Source of the DNA: Nitrospira sp.
GTDB lineage: Bacteria > Nitrospirota > Nitrospiria > Nitrospirales > Nitrospiraceae
DNA length: 64,000 nt
Assembly: GCA_030123625.1 (NCBI GenBank)
Contig: CP126121.1
Coordinates: forward strand, 1,714,179-1,778,178
Direction: 5' to 3'
Below, piece by piece: positions 7,040 through 24,947 of this stretch. Position 1 is the stretch's first letter; every line of letters starts with the position of its first letter. Below the pieces are notes generated by a model. The model worked only from the letters and a program-made list of their open reading frames with translations, was not told where the DNA came from and did no database searches. A program made the translations under genes and the position numbers.

Positions 7040-9124
7040 TCAACGTCCGCGTATCAGATCAAGGATCAATCCGACAGTGAGCAGCCCGGCGACGATGCCG
7101 AACGTGATCGGTATCCAGCCGGCGACCGTCGTTGACGCGACGGTGAACCCGCTGGCAAGAATACTTGCCGCAGCAGTCAGACCCAATGTCAGACGCCGCC
7201 CTGTCCTGCGGACCATCTCCTCGAGTGAATTGGCTTGGAAATTGACGACAAGCTTCTGGCCGGGGCGGGCGCCGATGAGATGTTCTATGGCCTCGATCAC
7301 CCGTTCGGCCCGTACCTTCAGTTTTTGCGACTGATAGAGGAGCGCTTTGGGATCCAGCGCGACCCCCATGCGTTTGATCATGACGCGCGTCAAAAACTTC
7401 CCTGCGACGTCATACGGATCGAGCTTTGGATCGAGATGGGCCGTCGCGAGTTGCACCTGGGCGAGCGCCTTCGCGGCGAGCGTGAGCGAGGCGGGCAACG
7501 GGACGCCGTGGCGAAAGCCGATCGTGCTCATTTCTTGAAGCAGCGGTCCGATCTGCATCTCAGCCAGAGCCGCCTTGCGATATTTCGCCATGACTTCTCC
7601 GATCTCACTTTGAAACCGTGGTACATCCAGATCATTGCGGTCGAGAGCACCCGTCATCATCAGTGTGACCTCGCTGAGGAAAACCACGTCCTCCTTCCAT
7701 AGCGCCATCAGCAACAACAAGAGATGCTCGCGCACATTGGCATCGACGGCGCCGACCATCCCGAAATCGAGCATGTAGATACGGTTCTTCCACCACATCA
7801 GATTGCCAGGATGAGGATCGGCATGGAAGAAGCCATCGACGATGATTTGTTTGTAGTAACTTTCCAAGAGCTGACGGGCCGCCTCGATACGCTCCGGGCC
7901 TTCCGGCGCCTGTGTGACCGGGACACCTTGAATCTCCTCCATCACCAAGAGCCGGGATGTCGATAGTTGGTGGTGCACGGAAGGAACGGCCAAATGGTCA
8001 TAGTCTGCGAGTACCGTTTGCATTCGATCGATGTTTTCGATTTCTTGATGAAAGTCGAGTTCACGGTGGAGCGATGTAGAGAGATGTTTGAAGACGGCTT
8101 CCATATTCACGATTTGGTTGAGGGCCGGGCGTTGCCCGACTTTCTGAGCGAATATTTCCAGCAGGGCAAGATCTTGTTCAATGTCGGCACGAGCCGTGGG
8201 CCGTTGAACTTTGATGACGACACGGTCACCGCTCTCGAGCATGGCCCGATGGACTTGTGCGATCGTGCCGGCGGCAAGCGGCTTTGTATCGATGGATTCA
8301 AACACGTCCTCCCACGGCACCCCTAACTCTTGCTCGGCGACCTGCACGACCTCACTCTCGGCCATGGGAGGGACATGACTCTGCAACATGGCGAGTTCAT
8401 CGATGTATTCCGGCGGGAGGAGGTCCGGCCGCGTCGACAATACTTGTCCAAGTTTCGAGAAGGTCGGCCCCAATTCCTCCAGAGCAGCCCGTAGGCGCTG
8501 AGCTTGCTGACGGCGAATGGAAATATTCGATGTCTCCGGTTGGCTAAACAGTTCTTTCAAGCCGTGCTTTGCCATCACCCTGGCGATGTGCGCGGCTCGG
8601 GCCCCCAGACGTGGTTCAGCGACGTGAGATTCCGCATGTGGCTTATAGATGCTCGCGAATTCTGGACCCGCCCCATCCACCGCTGACTGTGTATTCGCGA
8701 TAACAACGGTGCAGCGGGAATTGTGGCTGATACGGTTCGGAACATTCCCGAGCAAAAATTGCTTTCTGCCGGCCATTCCGGAATTACCCACAACCAGGAC
8801 ATCGATGGCTTCCCGTTCGGCGGCCCGGACGATCGCCGATGCCGGATCACGGTCAATGACGGCGAGGGAATGGCCGCGCTCTCCGGCGATCTCCTTCACA
8901 AAATGAGTCAGTTCGTCATGGGCGGCCGCGGCCCGTGTCTGCTCGGCTGCGCCGAATTCGGTGGTGGCCGGGTGTTGCGGAAGGATGACTTGTATCACGA
9001 ACAGTTCTGCACCGTAGCGGTCGGCGAACTCAGCGGCCCACCGGACGGCATGATCCGCCGTTTTGGATCGGTCCGTCCCGACCATCACGCGTCGTACAGT
9101 GTGGTTCTGAGGACGATTCTCCAT
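7040..9124 (-). CDS. Universal stress protein fused to ABC1/UbiB-family kinase-like protein
   Basis: About 694 residues. The N-terminal 140 are a UspA domain (starts VRRVMVGTDRSKTADHAVRW, with the nucleotide-binding GNSGMAGRKQFLLGNV pattern). From about residue 190 onward it is an ABC1/UbiB atypical kinase: KLGQVLSTRPDLLPPEY (KxGQ motif), an alanine-rich loop variant AAGTIAQVH, VVIKVQRP lysine, FFHADPHPGNLMW and YMLDFGMVG (metal-binding Asp). Two C-terminal hydrophobic segments anchor it, as in UbiB. UbiB proteins support ubiquinone or other isoprenoid-lipid metabolism. I chose ATG 9124 because upstream in-frame starts are only TTG (9190). The Usp fusion is unusual and suggests stress-sensing input. 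Confidence 0.87.
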   Translation of the reverse strand: MENRPQNHTVRRVMVGTDRSKTADHAVRWAAEFADRYGAELFVIQVILPQHPATTEFGAAEQTRAAAAHDELTHFVKEIAGERGHSLAVIDRDPASAIVRAAEREAIDVLVVGNSGMAGRKQFLLGNVPNRISHNSRCTVVIANTQSAVDGAGPEFASIYKPHAESHVAEPRLGARAAHIARVMAKHGLKELFSQPETSNISIRRQQAQRLRAALEELGPTFSKLGQVLSTRPDLLPPEYIDELAMLQSHVPPMAESEVVQVAEQELGVPWEDVFESIDTKPLAAGTIAQVHRAMLESGDRVVIKVQRPTARADIEQDLALLEIFAQKVGQRPALNQIVNMEAVFKHLSTSLHRELDFHQEIENIDRMQTVLADYDHLAVPSVHHQLSTSRLLVMEEIQGVPVTQAPEGPERIEAARQLLESYYKQIIVDGFFHADPHPGNLMWWKNRIYMLDFGMVGAVDANVREHLLLLLMALWKEDVVFLSEVTLMMTGALDRNDLDVPRFQSEIGEVMAKYRKAALAEMQIGPLLQEMSTIGFRHGVPLPASLTLAAKALAQVQLATAHLDPKLDPYDVAGKFLTRVMIKRMGVALDPKALLYQSQKLKVRAERVIEAIEHLIGARPGQKLVVNFQANSLEEMVRRTGRRLTLGLTAAASILASGFTVASTTVAGWIPITFGIVAGLLTVGLILDLIRGR

Positions 9125-9278
9125 ACTCCCTGCCGACCTTACCGACAATGATCGCCAAAGAGTATGACTATTGCCGCAATTGCATGTCAATTATGTGGCG
9201 ATGGAAGAGAGGCTCGGAACGTCGAGCGGTGTCTATTCGTTGACGGCCAATCGATTGCGTCCGTATGATCCTTCACCT

Positions 9279-12113: not shown

Positions 12114-13160
12114 GTGATGCAAGCAATTGAACCCTTTCTCACAAGCAACCTTCCCGGTATCGGTGGACAAATCCGCACCACGCCCGAAGACTTTCAAGTC
12201 GAAGAACGGCCGCTTTATCTCCCATGCGGGGAAGGGGAACATGTCTATGTCACGATTACGAAGCGTAACCTTTCCACACCGGATCTCGTCCGCCGGCTCT
12301 CGTCATCATTGAGAATCAAGGCACAGTCAATCGGTGTCGCGGGACTCAAGGACGCACGAGCGGTCACCACACAAATGGTATCCCTACAAGGAGTCGCACC
12401 AGATCAGATTTCCGGCTTGAAGATTGATGACAGACTCCTGAGCCTGCGGATACTCGGCCGCCATCGCAATCGGTTACGAACCGGCCATCACTCCGGCAAT
12501 CGCTTCCGCTTAGTCATCCGCGATGTCGCCGATCACGCAGCTGAAACCGTGCCGGCCGTCCTTCGACAGCTCAGCACGCGCGGCGTGCCGAACTATTTCG
12601 GACCACAGCGGCAAGGGAAGGACGGTGACAACCATCGCATCGGCGCGATATTGCTGCATGATACGCGGCGGCGTGAAAAAATGAGTCGGGCCACCCGCAT
12701 TTGGTATCTCAACGCCTATCAATCATTCCTGTTCAATCGGATACTCGCACGTAGAATCGACCGTCTCGACAAGGTTATCGCCGGAGATTGGGCCATGAAG
12801 TCGGACAATGGCGCCTGTTTTCAAGTCGAGGATGCCGAGAAAGAACAATCGCGAGCGGATCGTTTCGAAATCAGCCCGACAGGCATCCTCTTTGGTTCGC
12901 GGGTATCCTGGGCAAACGGCGAGCCCGGTCGAATCGAGGAGGCGGTCATTACAGAAGCAGGGGCAACGAAGGATAATCTTGTCGCAGCCGCCAAGGCTTG
13001 CGGATTCCGTGGCGAGCGGAGAGCGCTTCGCATTCCCCTCGCTGAACTTGAATGGTCGCTACACGGCTCCATCCTTGTCCTGTCCTTTAGTCTCCCCCCC
13101 GGCGCCTACGCCACAAGCGTACTCCGAGAACTGATGAAAGCATCCTCCCCGAACTCTTAG
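12114..13160 (+). CDS. truD: tRNA pseudouridine(13) synthase TruD
   Basis: A 348-residue TruD enzyme that isomerises U13 in tRNA. The catalytic aspartate lies in GVAGLKDARAVT (Asp80 counted from the GTG, 79 from the ATG at 12117). The downstream family blocks RHRNRLRTGHHSGNRF, VPNYFGPQRQG and WYLNAYQSFLFN are all present, as is the TruD-specific insertion domain between them. The length is normal for the family. The gene sits 68 bases upstream of the arginine-catabolism pair but has no evident functional link to it. Confidence 0.96.
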   Translation: MMQAIEPFLTSNLPGIGGQIRTTPEDFQVEERPLYLPCGEGEHVYVTITKRNLSTPDLVRRLSSSLRIKAQSIGVAGLKDARAVTTQMVSLQGVAPDQISGLKIDDRLLSLRILGRHRNRLRTGHHSGNRFRLVIRDVADHAAETVPAVLRQLSTRGVPNYFGPQRQGKDGDNHRIGAILLHDTRRREKMSRATRIWYLNAYQSFLFNRILARRIDRLDKVIAGDWAMKSDNGACFQVEDAEKEQSRADRFEISPTGILFGSRVSWANGEPGRIEEAVITEAGATKDNLVAAAKACGFRGERRALRIPLAELEWSLHGSILVLSFSLPPGAYATSVLRELMKASSPNS

Positions 13161-13228
13161 TTCCTCTCACTTTCTTTCCCTCCCCGCCACAGGTGGTAAA
13201 ATATGATCACATTCAGTGAGCGCCGACG

Positions 13229-14473
13229 ATGAATCACTACCAAGAAAGCGTGTACCTTCAAGGGCACATCATCGACTCTCTCATGCTCGCCAAGGTGCTC
13301 GATCTCATCCTGATGATGGGGGGAACCTTCGACCTGGAGGACGTCTACATCGGCAAGACCAGGGAGGAAGCATCTCATGTCCGTATTCGGATCCGAACCG
13401 TCTCAAGAACGCTTTTGGACGACATTCTAAGGGCGATTCAACCTCACGGCGCCTCGATCGAACGTGAAGCAGACTGCCGAATCGACCATGCACCTGCCGA
13501 CGGGGTGTTACCGGATGATTTCTACGCCACGACCCATCTTCCCACCCAGATCCGGCTCAACGGCCGATGGTTGGACGTGGACAGGATCGAGATGGACCTG
13601 GCCATCGTGGTGAATGAGCAGGGTTCAGTTGCACATGCCGTTCCCATGGGCGAAGTCCGTCGAGGAAATCGAATCGTAGTCGGCCGAGAAGGGGTGCGTA
13701 TCATTCCCCTGCAGCGTCCGCACGAACGAGATGTCTTCGGATTCATGGAGTCTCAGGTCTCGGCAGAACGGCCCCATGGCCATATCATCGCGGACATCGC
13801 AACTCGGATGCGTCAATTGAGAGAGCGGCATAGGCAAGACCAGGCCGATTCACACGTCTTGCTGGCCGGTGGACCAGCCATCATCCATGCCGGTGGGCGA
13901 GAGGCACTGACCTGGCTGATCGAACAGGGATTTATTCATATCCTGTTTTGCGGGAATGCCTTGGCGGCACATGACATGGAAGCCGATCTGTTCGGCACGT
14001 CGCTCGGCTATGGGCTCACAGCCGGACGCGCAGTCCCGCACGGCCATGAGCACCATTTGCGGACCATCAACCGAATTCGGGGCGTCGGCAGTATTGAGGC
14101 GGCGGTCACATCGGGAATAATCAAGCAGGGAATCATGGCGGCTTGTATACGGCAAGGCGTGCCGGTGGTCATGTCCGGCACGATTCGCGATGACGGCCCC
14201 TTGCCCGGGGTGATCACGGATTCCGTTCTGGCACAACGTGCGATGCGGGCCTTGATTCCCGGCGTCGGACTCGCTCTTCTCGTCGCCTCGACGTTGCATT
14301 CCGTGGCGACGGGTAATCTTCTGCCGGCAACCGTTCCCACGGTCTGTGTAGACGTCAATCCATCGGTCCCCACCAAGCTGGCCGACCGCGGAAGCTTTCA
14401 GGCGGTCGGCCTCGTCATGGATGCGGCCTCGTTTCTTTCGGAACTCGCGAGGGTGTTGGGGAGGGCGACATGA
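13229..14473 (+). CDS. LOR/SDH-type ornithine cyclodeaminase (TIGR00300 family; C-terminal half of AgrE-like enzyme)
   Basis: A 414-residue protein of the TIGR00300 / LOR-SDH family. Residues 1-100 carry the LOR/SDH conserved domain (YQESVYLQGHIIDSLMLAKV, then VRIRIRTVS). The C-terminal half is the nucleotide-binding part (VLLAGGPAIIHAGGREALTW; DLFGTSLGYGLTAGRAVPHG). In cyanobacterial AgrE the same domain follows an arginine dihydrolase domain and converts ornithine to proline plus ammonia. Here it is a separate gene whose stop overlaps the start of the dihydrolase gene by four bases (ATGA), so translation is coupled. ATG 13229 is used; an ATG at 13201 is in another frame. Function is inferred from family and from the partner. 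Confidence 0.85.
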   Translation: MNHYQESVYLQGHIIDSLMLAKVLDLILMMGGTFDLEDVYIGKTREEASHVRIRIRTVSRTLLDDILRAIQPHGASIEREADCRIDHAPADGVLPDDFYATTHLPTQIRLNGRWLDVDRIEMDLAIVVNEQGSVAHAVPMGEVRRGNRIVVGREGVRIIPLQRPHERDVFGFMESQVSAERPHGHIIADIATRMRQLRERHRQDQADSHVLLAGGPAIIHAGGREALTWLIEQGFIHILFCGNALAAHDMEADLFGTSLGYGLTAGRAVPHGHEHHLRTINRIRGVGSIEAAVTSGIIKQGIMAACIRQGVPVVMSGTIRDDGPLPGVITDSVLAQRAMRALIPGVGLALLVASTLHSVATGNLLPATVPTVCVDVNPSVPTKLADRGSFQAVGLVMDAASFLSELARVLGRAT

Positions 14474-15270
14474 GCCGCATCCTTGTCTGTCCGCCGGATT
14501 TTTTCGGAGTTGAGTATGAGATCAATCCCTGGATGCGACTTGCCAATCGCGTGGATCATGGACGGGCGGTGCGACAGTGGCATGAATTGACACGCGTGCT
14601 TGAACAAGACCTTGGCGTCATTCTCGAACGAATGACTCCCATTCCGGGGTTGCCCGATCTCGTATTTACGGCCAATGCCGGCATCGTGGTCGGACGAACC
14701 GCCGTCGTGAGTCGCTTCCGGTATCCTGAACGGCAACGAGAAGAAGTTCACTTTGAGAATTGGTTTCGGAAGCATGGCTATGAGGTGATGACGCTAGAAG
14801 CAGGCCTTCATTTTGAAGGCGCGGGAGATTTCCTGGGCTTCCCGGAATATTGGTTCGGCGGATATCGACAGCGATCGGATATCCGCGTCTTCCCGATTCT
14901 CAGTGAGCGTTTTCACCGAGAAATTATTCCGCTCGAACTCGTCGATAGCCGCTTCTATCATCTGGATACTTGCTTCTGCCCCTTGAGCGGCGGCGAGCTT
15001 CTGTATTTCCCCGCTGCATTTGATAGCTATGGCAGGACAGCGATCGCAGAACGTGTTCCGGACAAACTGCGCCTCGCCGTCCCGGAAGATGAAGCCTTGA
15101 AATTCGCCTGCAATGCCGTCTGCGTCGAGAAACACGTCGTCCTCCCTGCCGAATGCCCCGCGACTCAGGCTTGGCTTCGCATAAGAGGGTATGAAACCCA
15201 CCCGGTTCAGCTCGATGAGTTTATGAGGTCGGGCGGCTCGGCTAAATGCCTCACGCTGATGCTGGATTGA
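14470..15270 (+). CDS. Arginine dihydrolase / amidinotransferase-family protein (N-terminal half of AgrE/ArgZ-like enzyme)
   Basis: A 266-residue guanidino-modifying enzyme. Catalytic residues of the fold are visible: Glu116 in HFEGAGDFL, His164 in FYHLDTCFCPL and Cys260 in GGSAKCLTL near the C terminus. Asn69 in VFTANAG sits where the cyanobacterial arginine dihydrolases ArgZ/AgrE have the asparagine reported to favour hydrolysis of arginine to ornithine, CO2 and two ammonia. Plain arginine deiminases and dimethylargininases differ there. The length equals the N-terminal half of AgrE. Together with the overlapping upstream gene it should give arginine to ornithine to proline with release of ammonia. 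Confidence 0.85.
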   Translation: MSRILVCPPDFFGVEYEINPWMRLANRVDHGRAVRQWHELTRVLEQDLGVILERMTPIPGLPDLVFTANAGIVVGRTAVVSRFRYPERQREEVHFENWFRKHGYEVMTLEAGLHFEGAGDFLGFPEYWFGGYRQRSDIRVFPILSERFHREIIPLELVDSRFYHLDTCFCPLSGGELLYFPAAFDSYGRTAIAERVPDKLRLAVPEDEALKFACNAVCVEKHVVLPAECPATQAWLRIRGYETHPVQLDEFMRSGGSAKCLTLMLD

Positions 15271-15361
15271 GAGAATCATTGGTCAACGGTCATTGGTCGC
15301 TGTCCAGGGAGCGGGCGGAATGGCTCTTACCTAAGACCCATGACGAACGGCTATCGACCGC

Positions 15362-15721
15362 TCATTTTTTTCTGAACAAAAACGCGCCGTACAGGCCGGC
15401 AATCGCAATCGTGACAAGTTCAATCGTCAGAAGCATGCGGCTCACGACGGCTTCTGGAGCGGGAGGAGAAAGAATGAAATACATGCCGAGAAACTCAGGT
15501 GTTTGAGTCGGCGGAGTTTCCCATGGAGGAAAGAGCACGGCCAGAATCAGGACCACGACCATTCCGTAGAGCACCGTGAGATTGAGTTGGTCCGGTGTCG
15601 CGTCAGTATGATGTTGAGAAGTCAACGGACTATCCGGTAAACCGTCGAGCCGCCGACCGCATTGGATACAGAAGCGGTTGATCTCCGGTTGTGACCGGCT
15701 ACAGGCGGGACAGACTTGCAT
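15362..15721 (-). CDS. Zinc-ribbon membrane protein, hypothetical
   Basis: About 119 residues from ATG 15721, which has an AGGGA ribosome-binding site ten bases upstream; an ATG at 15745 would add eight residues. The N terminus is a four-cysteine zinc ribbon (CPAC, 13 residues, CIQCG). A polar linker follows, then two membrane segments (LTVLYGMVVVLILAVLF and ELVTIAIAGLYGAFLF). The C terminus is RKK. The family is not recognised. Its plan, zinc ribbon plus two membrane spans, mirrors the protein at 10031-10342 but in the opposite order. Confidence 0.6.
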   Translation of the reverse strand: MQVCPACSRSQPEINRFCIQCGRRLDGLPDSPLTSQHHTDATPDQLNLTVLYGMVVVLILAVLFPPWETPPTQTPEFLGMYFILSPPAPEAVVSRMLLTIELVTIAIAGLYGAFLFRKK

Positions 15722-15867
15722 CCTTGCGCATTCCCTGTATGCCATACATACATGAAAATGTCCTAAAGATGCTAGAGGGAAGGATCACGTCAGATGCGCT
15801 CACATGGTGCGCTCTCCGTCATGGGTGAACTGACATTGAGAAACTGAGATGAATGGCTTCCAATTCG

Positions 15868-15898
15868 TTGACAGGCGCTCGATAGCTCCTTATATAAT
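15868..15898 (+). promoter_or_regulatory. Sigma-70 promoter for gpsA-larB
   Basis: A perfect -35 box TTGACA (15868-15873) is followed after 17 bases by TATATA and after 19 bases by TATAAT (15893-15898). It points toward gpsA, giving a leader of roughly 120-150 bases. This is the clearest housekeeping-type promoter in the window. Confidence 0.6.
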
Positions 15899-15945
15899 CC
15901 GCCGTCCTGAATGGATGGGTGATGCTTCGCCATGAGGCTTGGCCC

Positions 15946-16038
15946 ACATTATTCATGAGCGCTTCTGCTGCAATCGCCTCTTCGCCGTTGCGACAAGCCT
16001 GGCCGCGCAATTTCGCGACGTATCGTCATGAATAATGT
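15946..16038 (+). repeat. 13-bp inverted repeat in the gpsA leader
   Basis: ACATTATTCATGA at 15946-15958 is an exact reverse complement of TCATGAATAATGT at 16026-16038, with a 67-base GC-rich loop. It lies between the sigma-70 promoter and gpsA and contains the ATG at 16028. In the transcript it could form a long-loop stem that hides that codon. Function unknown. Confidence 0.55.
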
Positions 16039-16051
16039 AGGTTCATCGCTT

Positions 16052-17074
16052 ATGTCGACCACGATCAACAAGATCGGCGTTATTGGAGCCGGAGCATGGG
16101 GCACAGCTCTGGCAAAACACCTGGCCGAGAAGGGGCTGGAGGTTCGTCTCTGGGCCTACGAGCCCCATGTCGTCAACGCTATCAATACCTCTCATGAAAA
16201 TCCGGTCTTCCTCAAAGACGTCCTTCTTCCTCGAAGTTTGACGGCTACCTCCTCACTCGTAGAGGCCGTCACGAACCGCGATGGAGTTCTGTTTGCCGTT
16301 CCTTCGCACCTCACTCGATCCCTGTTGCATCAGTTGGCACCCTGCCTTTCCGGTCCCCTGCCGTTCGTGTGTGCAACCAAAGGCATTGAGGAAAACACGG
16401 CCAAGCTGATGACCCAGGTCATGGAGGACGAGTTGCCGCCGTTCGTGCATCGCTCCTTTATGGTGCTTTCAGGACCGAGCTTTGCGTCGGAACTCAGCGC
16501 AGGCCTCCCCACGGCCGTATGTCTGGCCGGGTCCGATGAGCAATTGGTGAGGCAGTTTCAACGCGCGTTGATGACGCCCGTATTTCGGGTATACGCGGAC
16601 ACAGATGTCATCGGCGTTCAACTCGGCGGGGCCCTCAAGAATGTGATGGCGCTGGCCGCCGGTGTAATCGACGGTCTGGACCTCGGACTCAATGCCCGTG
16701 CGGCGCTCATTACTCGCGGCCTGGCTGAAAGCATCCGACTGGGCGTGGCAATGGGAGCTGATTCTCGCACGTTCTATGGACTTTCCGGGGTCGGCGATCT
16801 GGTACTGACCTGTACGGGCACACTCAGCCGGAACCATTGGGTAGGAGTTCGGCTCGGCAAGGGAGAAAAGCTGAAGACGATATTGGCCGGAATGCAGGCT
16901 GTCGCAGAAGGTGTTCGGACGAGTCGTGCGGCCCTCACGTTGGCCCGCCGCTATCGGATCGATATGCCGATCATTCAGGAAATCAACGCCGTCCTCTATG
17001 ACGATAAATCCTGTCGAAAAGCCGTCAGTGATTTGATGGAACGGGATGCGAAACCGGAGAAGGGATGGGCATGA
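16052..17074 (+). CDS. gpsA: Glycerol-3-phosphate dehydrogenase [NAD(P)+]
   Basis: Reduces dihydroxyacetone phosphate to sn-glycerol 3-phosphate for phospholipid synthesis in the cytoplasm. The N-terminal Rossmann motif GVIGAGAWGTALAKHL, the block FVCATKGIE and the substrate-binding lysine region LKNVMALAAGVIDGLDLG are all present. About 340 residues is normal for GpsA. I prefer the ATG at 16052 (MSTTINKIG) over the ATG at 16028, because 16028 lies inside the leader inverted repeat and adds residues not typical of the family; neither has a strong ribosome-binding site. It overlaps larB by four bases. Confidence 0.95.
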   Translation: MSTTINKIGVIGAGAWGTALAKHLAEKGLEVRLWAYEPHVVNAINTSHENPVFLKDVLLPRSLTATSSLVEAVTNRDGVLFAVPSHLTRSLLHQLAPCLSGPLPFVCATKGIEENTAKLMTQVMEDELPPFVHRSFMVLSGPSFASELSAGLPTAVCLAGSDEQLVRQFQRALMTPVFRVYADTDVIGVQLGGALKNVMALAAGVIDGLDLGLNARAALITRGLAESIRLGVAMGADSRTFYGLSGVGDLVLTCTGTLSRNHWVGVRLGKGEKLKTILAGMQAVAEGVRTSRAALTLARRYRIDMPIIQEINAVLYDDKSCRKAVSDLMERDAKPEKGWA

Positions 17075-17859
17075 ATCCGGAAGGGCTCGAACGGCTGTTA
17101 CAACAGATCCGTCACGGACACGTGACGGTAGAACAGGCGCTTCAGCGCTTACGATCATTGCCTTTCGAGGATCTGGGCTTTGCTTCGCTCGATCATCATC
17201 GATCGTTACGGCAGGGATTCCCCGAGGTGATCTTGTGTGAGGGAAAAACCACGGCGCAGGTCATCGCCATCGCTCGGGCACTCATCAAGAAACAGGGGCC
17301 GTTTCTGGCGACTCGTGCCGACCCATCGGTCGCGCGTGCCATTCGCCGTCTGGATCGGCGAGCGCAGCACTATCCCGATGCGCGTATTGTGGCGATTCGC
17401 CCATCCAGGCAGACACGACACGGACATATACTCGTCGTCACCGCGGGAACTGCGGACCTGCCCGTGGCGGAAGAAGCCCGTGTGACCGCAGAAGTGATGG
17501 GAAGCCATGTCGAGCGGCTGTATGATGTCGGTGTCGCGGGTATTCACCGGTTGCTCGGAAAGAAAGAGCGGCTGTTCGATGCGCGGGTCATCATTGTTGC
17601 GGCCGGTATGGACGGCGTCCTGCCGAGTGTGGTGGGAGGCTTGGTCCACTGCCCCGTCATTGCCGTGCCGACCAGCCGAGGCTATGGCGCGAGTTTCGGA
17701 GGAGTCGCTGCACTGCTGACGATGCTCAATTCCTGCGCGGCCGGTGTGGGAGTGCTGAATATCGACAACGGATTCGGCGCGGCCTGCCTCGCGCATCGGA
17801 TCAATATGTTGGGTTCCGGCCGAGACGAGCGGGAAACGCGCGACAAGCGAGAAAAGTGA
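17071..17859 (+). CDS. larB: Nickel-pincer cofactor biosynthesis protein LarB
   Basis: About 262 residues. LarB carboxylates the pyridinium ring of nicotinic acid adenine dinucleotide, the first step of the nickel-pincer nucleotide cofactor used by lactate racemase and related LarA enzymes. The helical N terminus (LERLLQQIRHGHVTVEQALQRL) and the C-terminal PurE-like carboxylase fold (VVTAGTADLPVAEEA, IIVAAGMDGVLPSVVGGLV, AVPTSRGYGASFGG) are clear. ATG 17071 makes a four-base ATGA overlap with gpsA and has AAGGG at proper spacing; ATG 17065 is an alternative. larC follows within 0.8 kb, but larE and larA are not in the window. Confidence 0.93.
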   Translation: MNPEGLERLLQQIRHGHVTVEQALQRLRSLPFEDLGFASLDHHRSLRQGFPEVILCEGKTTAQVIAIARALIKKQGPFLATRADPSVARAIRRLDRRAQHYPDARIVAIRPSRQTRHGHILVVTAGTADLPVAEEARVTAEVMGSHVERLYDVGVAGIHRLLGKKERLFDARVIIVAAGMDGVLPSVVGGLVHCPVIAVPTSRGYGASFGGVAALLTMLNSCAAGVGVLNIDNGFGAACLAHRINMLGSGRDERETRDKREK

Positions 17860-18474: not shown

Positions 18475-18654
18475 GGGTGAGGATGGCGCATTGGCCGCGA
18501 GGCACGGTCAGTGGAACTCAATCGCATTGTTAGGGGGATAACATAGCATCCCCGGGGTGTCAACGAAGTGTCGACAATGAACCAACGATTGCCGTTCGGC
18601 AACACGTTTGGGTAAGATGTCCGGTCTTTTTACGTGGAACGAACGAGGAACTCG

Positions 18655-19869
18655 GTGGGTCGGCATCTGCACTTCGATTGTTTCTCCGGCGTCAGTGGAG
18701 ACATGATCCTGGGCGCGCTGGTCAGCGCCGGGCTTTCGTGGACAGATTTGATGAACGGACTCAAACGCCTACGGCTCAGCGGGTACCGATTGCGGAAGCG
18801 TGAGGTGCATCGTGGCGCGCTTCCGGCGATCAAGGTCGACGTGATCGTTCAACAGGGGTTCCAACGGCCGTTGACGCTCTCCCGTATCCGAAAGATCCTT
18901 GCCGGCAGCACGCTGCCCGGTCCGGTCAAGGAACGGAGCCGATCGGTCTTCGATCGACTGGCTGAAGCGGAAAGTCTTGCCCATCGAGTCGATGTGACGG
19001 AGGTTCATTTTCATGAAGTGGGAGTTGTGGATTCGTTGATCGATGTCGTCGGAGGCGTGCTGGGTTGCCATCTTTTGAATGCGACCCGCATCACGTCGTC
19101 CCCCATCAATGTCGGGACCGGTTCCATTCAGACTTCACACGGGCTCTTACCCGTTCCAGGACCCGCTGTGGCGGTGCTGGCCAAGGGGATCCCGATCTAC
19201 GCCGACGGTCCGCGCTGCGAGCTCGCCACCCCCACCGGGGTTGCGCTGCTTCGAACATTGGCGTCGGAATTCTGCCCTCTGCCGGTCATGAAAAGCATGG
19301 CGGTAGGCTATGGAGCCGGCGACCGTAATCCGGACGAGTGGCCCAACGCTTTGCGGGTGTTTCTGGAGGAAGAGTCCGCGTCGGAGACACAGTCGACCGA
19401 GCGAGTGATACAGATTGAAACGAATCTCGACGACCTCAATCCACAGACCTACGAACACATCATGGAACAGCTCTTTCAGGTCGGTGCTGTCGATGTCGTA
19501 CTGGCTCCCGTCGTCATGAAGAAAGGCCGACCGGGAGTCATGTTGAGCTGCCTGGCCGCTGAAGATCGCACGGATGCCGTGCTCGAAGTCCTCTTCCAGG
19601 AAACGACGACGATCGGAGTACGCCTTCACGAAGTACGCCGACGGATCCTCCCCCGGCGATTCGTCCCTGTCACGATTCAGGGTGGAGTCGTTCGCATGAA
19701 AGTCGCCGAGGTCGGCGCCGGCTGGGAAAAAGCAGCCCCTGAATATGAGGACTGTAAGGCCATCGCAACACGAACGGGTCGTCCTCTCAAAACAGTTATG
19801 GAGGAAGCCGTGCTGGCCTATCGGCGTGGGATCCGGAACAGAACGCGTCACCGGCGAGGCCGGGCGTGA
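18655..19869 (+). CDS. larC: Nickel-pincer cofactor biosynthesis protein LarC (nickel insertase)
   Basis: About 404 residues. LarC inserts nickel into the dithio-pyridinium nucleotide made by LarB and LarE. The N-terminal hallmark HLHFDCFSGVSGDMILGAL, the HEVG block (EVHFHEVGVVDSLIDVVG) and the C-terminal domain (IQIETNLDDLNPQTYEHIM, GRPGVMLSCL) are complete. The GTG at 18655 has GAGGA nine bases upstream, so it is preferred to the GTG at 18634. The gene is one continuous frame, unlike the lactobacillar larC, which needs a programmed frameshift. It overlaps the downstream exchanger gene by four bases (GTGA). Confidence 0.93.
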   Translation: MGRHLHFDCFSGVSGDMILGALVSAGLSWTDLMNGLKRLRLSGYRLRKREVHRGALPAIKVDVIVQQGFQRPLTLSRIRKILAGSTLPGPVKERSRSVFDRLAEAESLAHRVDVTEVHFHEVGVVDSLIDVVGGVLGCHLLNATRITSSPINVGTGSIQTSHGLLPVPGPAVAVLAKGIPIYADGPRCELATPTGVALLRTLASEFCPLPVMKSMAVGYGAGDRNPDEWPNALRVFLEEESASETQSTERVIQIETNLDDLNPQTYEHIMEQLFQVGAVDVVLAPVVMKKGRPGVMLSCLAAEDRTDAVLEVLFQETTTIGVRLHEVRRRILPRRFVPVTIQGGVVRMKVAEVGAGWEKAAPEYEDCKAIATRTGRPLKTVMEEAVLAYRRGIRNRTRHRRGRA

Positions 19870-23100: not shown

Positions 23101-23733
23101 CTACGCCGGCCGCATGTGGATCTTGAAAATGACGCGTCGGCTCTTATCGCGGTCAGGTTGTCCGACATCATCGCGTAGGAGGTTCTGCTCTCCACGCCCG
23201 TTCGCCGTGGCTTTCCGCAAGAAGCAGTCATACGCCCAAGGAAGCTTCTCGCGAATTACTTCCAAGCTTTTCGCCAGTACGGCAAAAGAGCGTTCCTGAC
23301 TGAGTTTCAGATTGCGTATATCGTCGCCCAAATCGTCAGTGTACCCCTCAATGACAAAGGCCTCCACTTCTTGCTCTGTAGGTCCGCAAGCGATTGATGC
23401 GTAGTGAGGCATGGCCTCGGACAAGAAGGTTTCGGCGGCAGGAAGTAACCTGCTCTTGCCGAACTCAAAGTTGATCGCCGCATCCGGCACCGTGATCGTG
23501 TGGACGCTCGGGCTTTTGGCTTCCAGTGGTGGACGGCGTGGGTCAACGCTCGGCGCCATGTCCGTCGGTGTGGCACGGTCCCCGGCGGGATCGGCATGTT
23601 TGTCTTGAACGCGGGTCACATAGGCCACGAGCAAGAGAATGAAGATGACGGCGAGCGAGGTCATCAGATCTGCAACCCCGCTCGTCACCACAGCAGAACC
23701 GTCACGAGAGTCCTGCGCGAAGATCGGCCTCAT
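23101..23733 (-). CDS. ZorB-like (MotB/OmpA) inner-membrane protein
   Basis: A 210-residue protein with one N-terminal membrane span (ADLMTSLAVIFILLLVAYV) whose leading aspartate matches the ion-conducting Asp of MotB, TolR and ZorB. A proline-rich periplasmic linker is followed by an OmpA-like peptidoglycan-binding domain (residues about 85-205: INFEFGKSRLLPAAETFLSE, IEGYTDD, KLSQERSFAVL). It overlaps the ZorA-like gene by four bases (ATGA), so the two are made together. ZorB is the stator part of Zorya anti-phage systems, but no effector gene is beside it here. Confidence 0.78.
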   Translation of the reverse strand: MRPIFAQDSRDGSAVVTSGVADLMTSLAVIFILLLVAYVTRVQDKHADPAGDRATPTDMAPSVDPRRPPLEAKSPSVHTITVPDAAINFEFGKSRLLPAAETFLSEAMPHYASIACGPTEQEVEAFVIEGYTDDLGDDIRNLKLSQERSFAVLAKSLEVIREKLPWAYDCFLRKATANGRGEQNLLRDDVGQPDRDKSRRVIFKIHMRPA

Positions 23734-24947
23734 TCCCTTCGTTGCCTCCGTGCCGTTTCCGGATTATGATCATTATTTGCCTGATGTATAGGTTCTGTCG
23801 TGGCGGTTGTCTTGTCCCTGAGTTCCTGAAGCATCGCTTCGATCTCCGATTGGGACAGCTGGACCGGAGCGCATTGTTCCTTAAGGGAGCGGTTGAGATC
23901 GTGAATGGCTTCCAGCAAGGGATTCATCAGGGGCCTTAACGCCCGCTGGACCTCGTGGCCGATTTCCCCGGCCACATCATCGAACTTCATCGGTGAACGT
24001 TTGGAATTCAACGCCGTGAGCGCCTGAGAGGCGGCGTGTAGAGCCTCGACGGTAGCTCCGAGGCGCTGCTGCACGACCTCTACAAGCTGATGTGCGACAT
24101 CGTTTCGGACGGGAGTGACGATGGTCGTCGGAGGTCCGTTCGCCGACGAGGAAACGGAGGGAGGTTGATCGGCGGCTTTCTGAGGAAACATTTCATCCAA
24201 GAGAGAAACGCACTCCCGGTGCCGGTTGTCCAGCCGATGCCAGAGAGAATTTTCGAGGAGCGTGAACGCATTGGCGCACGCCAAGCCGACGATGGATGTG
24301 ACGAACTTTCCTGAGAGCCCGTTGATCAGTCCTTGGATTCCATCGATCTCCGACCCATTCGCATGGAGTTTGCTGAGCCCGATTAAAATAGCAAGAAAGG
24401 TAAACATCAAACCCATACCCGTCATGAAACCGGGAAGCTGCCGGTAAAAACGGACATTGAGATGGGCGGCGCAGAGAGAGTCGAATGAGAAAAAATCGCT
24501 TGCAGAGCGCTGACTGTGGACGGTCGGCTCAAGAAACCAGGCGGATTGCTCCACCGCGAGTGTCTTGCGGTATGAAAGCCAGTCTCTGGCAAAAGCCTGC
24601 TCTGACCGTACCGCACGATCCAATGCTTGTAAATCATCGAGATCGCGCCGCGTTTCCGCCGACTCATCAGGACGCGCCCGCTTTTTCGCCAAACTCGGAA
24701 TGACAAGCCAATCCTTGGAAATTTGTCGCCGTGCCAAGACGAGAGGCGCGACGGACGATTGAAAGCGCGACAACGTCCGTTGAATGTGTAATAGACCTCG
24801 GACCAGCACCGCGCTATGCCAGAGACAAAGAGCGAGGATACCTGCGGCACCGAGCCAGCTCAGCATCGGACTCTGAAGCCCGCCGACCACCGTCACGTCG
24901 CGCGTGAGCCATTCCCAAAAGGCAGTGAACGAATCCAATTCATCCAT
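23730..24947 (-). CDS. ZorA-like (MotA/TolQ/ExbB) proton-channel protein
   Basis: A 405-residue membrane protein. One span lies near residues 29-53 (LSWLGAAGILALCLWHSAVL). After a cytoplasmic loop come the paired spans of the MotA/TolQ/ExbB/ZorA fold: FMTGMGLMFTFLAILIGLSKL and GKFVTSIVGLACANAFTLLE. The C-terminal 120 residues are helical (VVQQRLGATVEALHAASQAL), much shorter than the long tail of classical ZorA. The start has GAGG eight bases upstream. The ZorB-like partner overlaps its 3' end. Alternative reading: a novel MotAB-like energy-transducing stator unrelated to defence. Confidence 0.78.
   Translation of the reverse strand: MDELDSFTAFWEWLTRDVTVVGGLQSPMLSWLGAAGILALCLWHSAVLVRGLLHIQRTLSRFQSSVAPLVLARRQISKDWLVIPSLAKKRARPDESAETRRDLDDLQALDRAVRSEQAFARDWLSYRKTLAVEQSAWFLEPTVHSQRSASDFFSFDSLCAAHLNVRFYRQLPGFMTGMGLMFTFLAILIGLSKLHANGSEIDGIQGLINGLSGKFVTSIVGLACANAFTLLENSLWHRLDNRHRECVSLLDEMFPQKAADQPPSVSSSANGPPTTIVTPVRNDVAHQLVEVVQQRLGATVEALHAASQALTALNSKRSPMKFDDVAGEIGHEVQRALRPLMNPLLEAIHDLNRSLKEQCAPVQLSQSEIEAMLQELRDKTTATTEPIHQANNDHNPETARRQRRE

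Follow-up and report, generated by a model that had tools for sequence, protein, structure and literature searches.

A probable two-gene arginine catabolic module with a predicted nickel-pincer nucleotide-dependent ornithine cyclodeaminase in Nitrospira

Introduction

In the cyanobacterial proteins AgrE (Anabaena Alr4995) and ArgZ (Synechocystis Sll1336), arginine dihydrolase and ornithine cyclodeaminase are joined in a single protein, with the dihydrolase first. The chemistry of AgrE and the PutA step that follows it have been described for cyanobacteria (PMC8262935). Stand-alone cyclodeaminases of the TIGR00300 family are found in archaea, for example, Methanocaldococcus MJ1480 (chain 3c2q). 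These archaeal family members make proline for biosynthesis. In NCBIfam, TIGR00300 bears the name ‘ornithine cyclodeaminase, nickel-pincer nucleotide-dependent’; a non-exhaustive literature search yielded no link between the nickel-pincer nucleotide (NPN) and this cyclodeaminase, and the label is that of NCBIfam. The nickel-pincer enzymes of the LarA type, with which a cyclodeaminase of this kind is predicted to share a need for LarB, LarC, and LarE, are hydroxyacid racemases of a different family (PF09861). We found no published activity for any pair of separately encoded dihydrolase and cyclodeaminase, and no published description of such a split module, with likely NPN dependence, in the phylum Nitrospirota.

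Results

An overlapping gene pair homologous to both halves of AgrE

The window, a stretch of 64,000 nucleotides from a Nitrospira sp. genome, carries two adjacent open frames on the plus strand that we assign to an ornithine cyclodeaminase of the TIGR00300 type (ORF A, positions 13229–14473, 414 aa) and a separate arginine dihydrolase of the ArgZ/AgrE type (ORF B, 14470–15270, 266 aa). Direct reading of the sequence confirms the adjacency and the ATGA overlap reported in the initial annotation: the stop codon of A and the start codon of B share positions 14470–14473. A ribosome-binding site, GGAGGG, is located about 5 bases 5' of the ORF B start, and we infer that translation of A and B is coupled via the overlap. 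A promoter scan of positions 13000–17200 produced no more promoter-like sites than expected by chance, and none 5' of A.

ORF A passes the curated TIGR00300 model (462 bits; cut-off 410.8) and contains the Pfam domain Saccharop_dh_N together with both ArgZ-like_C domains, the three that are present in the cyclodeaminase half of AgrE. It is homologous to 3c2q (312 bits) and to residues 288–693 of AgrE (304 bits). Like its archaeal homologs, A is a stand-alone TIGR00300 protein; unlike those, it is accompanied by an overlapping dihydrolase gene, in a genome that encodes both ProA and PutA. With AgrE and ArgZ, the pair shares end-to-end homology of both domains and conservation of the catalytic Asn, Glu, His, and Cys; the same two reactions are expected. 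We nevertheless do not file the pair as AgrE because it consists of two genes, with the cyclodeaminase first, even if it would be expected to work in an AgrE-like manner.

Two other reading frames in the window, both on the minus strand, deserve mention. At 7040–9190, a single open frame joins an apparent universal-stress-protein domain to a UbiB-type kinase, and at 23730–24947, a 405-aa protein shows weak matches to models of ZorA (Zorya defence system), all far below the cut-offs.

ORF B groups with arginine dihydrolases

Profiles, catalytic residues, and a phylogenetic tree support the enzyme assignments of the initial annotation. In a PDB search, B matches the N-terminal domains of ArgZ (6jv0, E = 7.5e-71) and AgrE (6lrf, E = 1.4e-70). 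The residues originally adduced in favor of a dihydrolase, Asn69 and a Glu/His/Cys triad, are all in place (Asn69, Glu116, His164, and Cys260), and Asn69 aligns to Asn71 of ArgZ; in the ArgZ chains 6juz and 6jv1, Ser occupies the positions that match Asn69 and Cys260 of B. Across 105 homologs, His and Cys are conserved without exception, and the catalytic Asn is found in 103, with Asp present only in the two sequences of the DDAH/ADI type (L094 and L096).

The phylogenetic comparison with AgrE and ArgZ that had been suggested as a check came out in favor of the dihydrolase. In the tree of the 105 homologs, from which agmatine deiminases were left out, one clade of 98 sequences (support 96/86) unites B with ArgZ, AgrE, and the remaining split dihydrolases, separate from the actinobacterial ‘ddaH’ proteins and from the Asp-type DDAH/ADI. 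The presence of Asn69 and the position outside the DDAH/ADI branches speak against B being a DDAH or arginine deiminase of that type. One identity named at the outset as contradicting the assignment, agmatine deiminase, is not represented among the Pfam or NCBIfam profile matches of B (E 0.001).

The curated cut-offs of the relevant family models are not reached by B, which scores 281 bits on the NCBIfam arginine dihydrolase model NF052232 (cut-off 450) and 235 bits on the mycobacterial dimethylargininase model (cut-off 300). The tested split homologs from other phyla are likewise below both cut-offs, with 278–285 bits on NF052232. The second score of B, not far under the cut-off, together with the catalytic Asn that the actinobacterial proteins also carry, could indicate that B is not a dihydrolase but an enzyme of the actinobacterial ‘ddaH’ type, acting as a dimethylargininase or an arginine deiminase. 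This seems highly improbable, given that B scores higher on the ArgZ/arginine dihydrolase models and is placed with ArgZ/AgrE in the tree; moreover, the mycobacterial gene itself overlaps the gene of an ornithine user and may encode a dihydrolase, too. In this mycobacterial locus (L090:2908–5024), the active site encoded by ‘ddaH’ is of the Asn type, and the overlapping gene is rocD (ornithine aminotransferase), a hint that the ‘dimethylargininase’ is actually an arginine dihydrolase. The actinobacterial ddaH-rocD pair resembles A-B in that the gene of an Asn-type guanidino hydrolase overlaps that of an ornithine-consuming enzyme, and differs in that this enzyme is an aminotransferase and the hydrolase belongs to a clade of its own.

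Gene order and spread of the pair

Both A and B are present in 107 of the 147 genomes of the order, and the single genome with A but not B is incomplete; in the high-quality set, B is encoded by all 70 genomes that have A. Throughout Nitrospirales, A and B recur as adjacent genes in the same order, as they do, at about 50% identity, in the deeper families of Nitrospiria, which argues against a chance pairing. Relatives from the class match named Nitrospirota records, the dihydrolase of G379 being identical to that of a Nitrospirae MAG (L097). G434, from a further family within the phylum, has the two genes in this order as well.

We scanned one genome per species and took as a sample the 80 best dihydrolase loci, which represent Planctomycetota, Verrucomicrobiota, Chloroflexota, Omnitrophota, Methylomirabilota, Armatimonadota, Myxococcota, and other phyla, with a few Nitrospirota and no cyanobacteria. 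In 48 of these loci, mostly from other phyla, a separate cyclodeaminase gene lies just upstream of the dihydrolase gene, and no locus shows a fusion or a dihydrolase-first order; the others have no cyclodeaminase nearby, save for one fragment on the opposite strand. Hence, the initial description of the pair as split and order-swapped holds relative to cyanobacterial AgrE, but not as an oddity: an unusual arrangement is rejected, with more than half of the sampled loci outside cyanobacteria organized in the same way.

In 31 of the 80 loci, mostly from Planctomycetota, the dihydrolase gene is without a cyclodeaminase gene within the flanks examined (up to 5 kb on each side); the recurrent neighbors are mostly reading frames on the opposite strand, and nothing telling was detected among them. 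One dihydrolase, from a Bacteroidales-labelled contig (L127), falls among those of Gemmataceae, which reflects either a wrongly binned contig or transfer.

The distances among A and among B proteins are correlated (Mantel r = 0.846; 0 of 999 permutations). Candidatus Methylomirabilis is placed with Omnitrophota in the A tree as well as in the B tree, as would be predicted for genes that move as a pair. A search of plasmids for the pair recovered only dihydrolase relatives without a cyclodeaminase, plus one distant cyclodeaminase.

A predicted route from arginine to glutamate

We consider it likely that A and B comprise a two-protein arginine catabolic module that feeds into a PutA step and includes an NPN-dependent A, the activities and the cofactor being predicted from sequence comparisons. 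Under this scheme, B would hydrolyse the guanidino group of arginine twice, yielding ornithine, CO2, and two ammonia; A, with NPN supplied by LarB and LarC, encoded just downstream, and LarE, encoded elsewhere, would cyclise ornithine to proline with the release of a third ammonia; and PutA, encoded elsewhere in the genome, would then oxidise proline to glutamate. Each of the 70 high-quality genomes with A encodes PutA (p = 3e-5, kinship ignored). ProA matches were found in all 94 high-quality relatives, and a role of A as the sole source of proline is therefore rejected. The presence of PutA with A and of ProA throughout fits the conversion of arginine to proline to glutamate, the cyanobacterial AgrE-PutA route (PMC8262935).

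We traced several cases of loss of A with retention of B. Two genomes, G056 and G011, apparently share one deletion of A, and G062 and G045 have other deletions, with different breakpoints; all four retain B with its catalytic residues. Between G056 and G011, the divergence of which appears to follow the common loss, dN/dS of B is 0.165. Purifying selection on B after the loss of A implies that B has a use without A, which might be, for example, the ornithine-ammonia cycle described for cyanobacteria (PMC8262935). In G034, B is broken and larC contains a stop.

The separate deletions of A and the continuing selection on an intact B are compatible with A and B being adjacent by inheritance only, with B acting in an ornithine-ammonia cycle and A making proline for biosynthesis. 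We find this distinctly unlikely: B is invariably present in the high-quality A-positive genomes, with PutA always alongside A, proline is already made by ProA, and the same pair occurs in the same order in many phyla. The joint catabolic module is thus the preferred reading.

The initial annotation further held that the release of ammonia matters in a nitrogen-cycling organism. The closed genome (4.69 Mb) carries two ammonia monooxygenase A genes (G000:C1:1659406–1660113 and 820033–820740), which point to a complete ammonia oxidiser (comammox) as the source. Among genomes of the genus, the cyclodeaminase occurs as often without ammonia monooxygenase (24/30) as with it (40/49; p = 1), which leaves a special role in nitrification without support. 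The module follows PutA and not ammonia oxidation.

The nickel-pincer nucleotide as the probable cofactor of A

Two genes of NPN synthesis that went unmentioned in the initial annotation are located 2–4 kb downstream of the A-B pair, on the same strand: larB (17065–17859; NF033503, 288 bits, cut-off 175), for the first enzyme of cofactor synthesis, and larC (18634–19869), for nickel insertion into the cofactor. The latter combines LarC1 and LarC2 within a single open frame and matches TIGR00299 (187 bits) and NF052512 (146 bits), both over the cut-off, as well as PF01969 (433 bits); larE is elsewhere in the genome. The end of gpsA (16028–17074) is overlapped by larB. Between B and gpsA-larB lies a gap of 758 bases that contains a conserved, oppositely oriented gene, so that larBC and the A-B pair are not clearly one operon. 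Their linkage is limited to one family (f1); in a closed genome of another family (f3), the distance is about 146 kb.

Searches in which the controls gave matches show that neither this genome nor any of the 147 relatives has LarA; larB, larC, and larE are therefore present with no LarA to account for them, the GSU2086 family being a possible other user. LarB is found in 69 of the 70 high-quality A-positive genomes vs 17 of the 24 A-negative ones (p = 0.0002); the association p-values given here and below ignore kinship and, the genomes being related, overstate independence, and presence or absence in MAGs, taken from hand-transcribed tables, depends on completeness. In one MAG, G003, internal deletions have left only end fragments of A, of larB, and of larC, within a stretch without N in which truD, B, gpsA, pdxA, ksgA, and other genes are intact around the deletions. 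Chance would hardly account for three separate deletions that all affect functionally linked genes, but this is a single case. The presence of larBCE, the absence of LarA, and the joint loss lend independent support to the NPN-dependent label of NCBIfam; as judged from these comparisons, A most likely depends on NPN made by LarB, LarC, and LarE.

Alternatively, the pathway could operate as proposed with A using NAD+, and LarBCE would serve another enzyme, such as a member of the GSU2086 family. The Rossmann-like fold of A (PF21570) is consistent with NAD+, and LarB is kept in relatives without A, most of which carry GSU2086: among the A-negative high-quality genomes, LarB is present in 14/16 with GSU2086 vs 3/8 without it (p = 0.02). 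However, among the GSU2086-negative high-quality genomes, LarB goes with A (11/11 vs 3/8 without A; p = 0.005), the genome with the joint deletion of A, larB, and larC itself lacks GSU2086, and NCBIfam names TIGR00300 as NPN-dependent. The use of NAD+ appears rather unlikely to us, and we favor NPN as the cofactor of A.

The GSU2086 family weakly resembles both the cyclodeaminase and deoxyhypusine synthase. It scores over the cut-off in 115 of the 147 relatives and goes with LarB where the cyclodeaminase is missing: 14 of the 17 high-quality genomes with LarB and without A carry GSU2086. In this genome (G000:C1:2655542–2656456, minus strand) and at L075:6522–7511, the gene is in a stretch with gmhA-like and rfaE/hldE-like genes. 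A tentative and, in our estimate, doubtful extension of the NPN model is that Nitrospirales make NPN, without LarA, for two families, the cyclodeaminase and GSU2086, the latter an unrecognised user. If this holds, GSU2086 would represent a novel type of NPN-using enzyme. The remaining three of the 17 genomes (G108, G117, and G122) are nearly complete and have LarB but no LarA, TIGR00300, or GSU2086 match; these could be explained by a further NPN user, by recent loss, or by an overlooked gene.

Discussion

The enzymes themselves are of known kinds, and the split module in this phylum, with its likely NPN dependence, is a variant. Judging by the sampled loci, the fused cyanobacterial AgrE seems to be the exceptional form of a module that is widespread as two genes and that standard family models leave unnamed as a dihydrolase. 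Separate genes permit independent loss, and several Nitrospira relatives retain the dihydrolase alone. Whether the cyclodeaminase family runs on the nickel-pincer nucleotide becomes testable, and the comparative evidence points that way.
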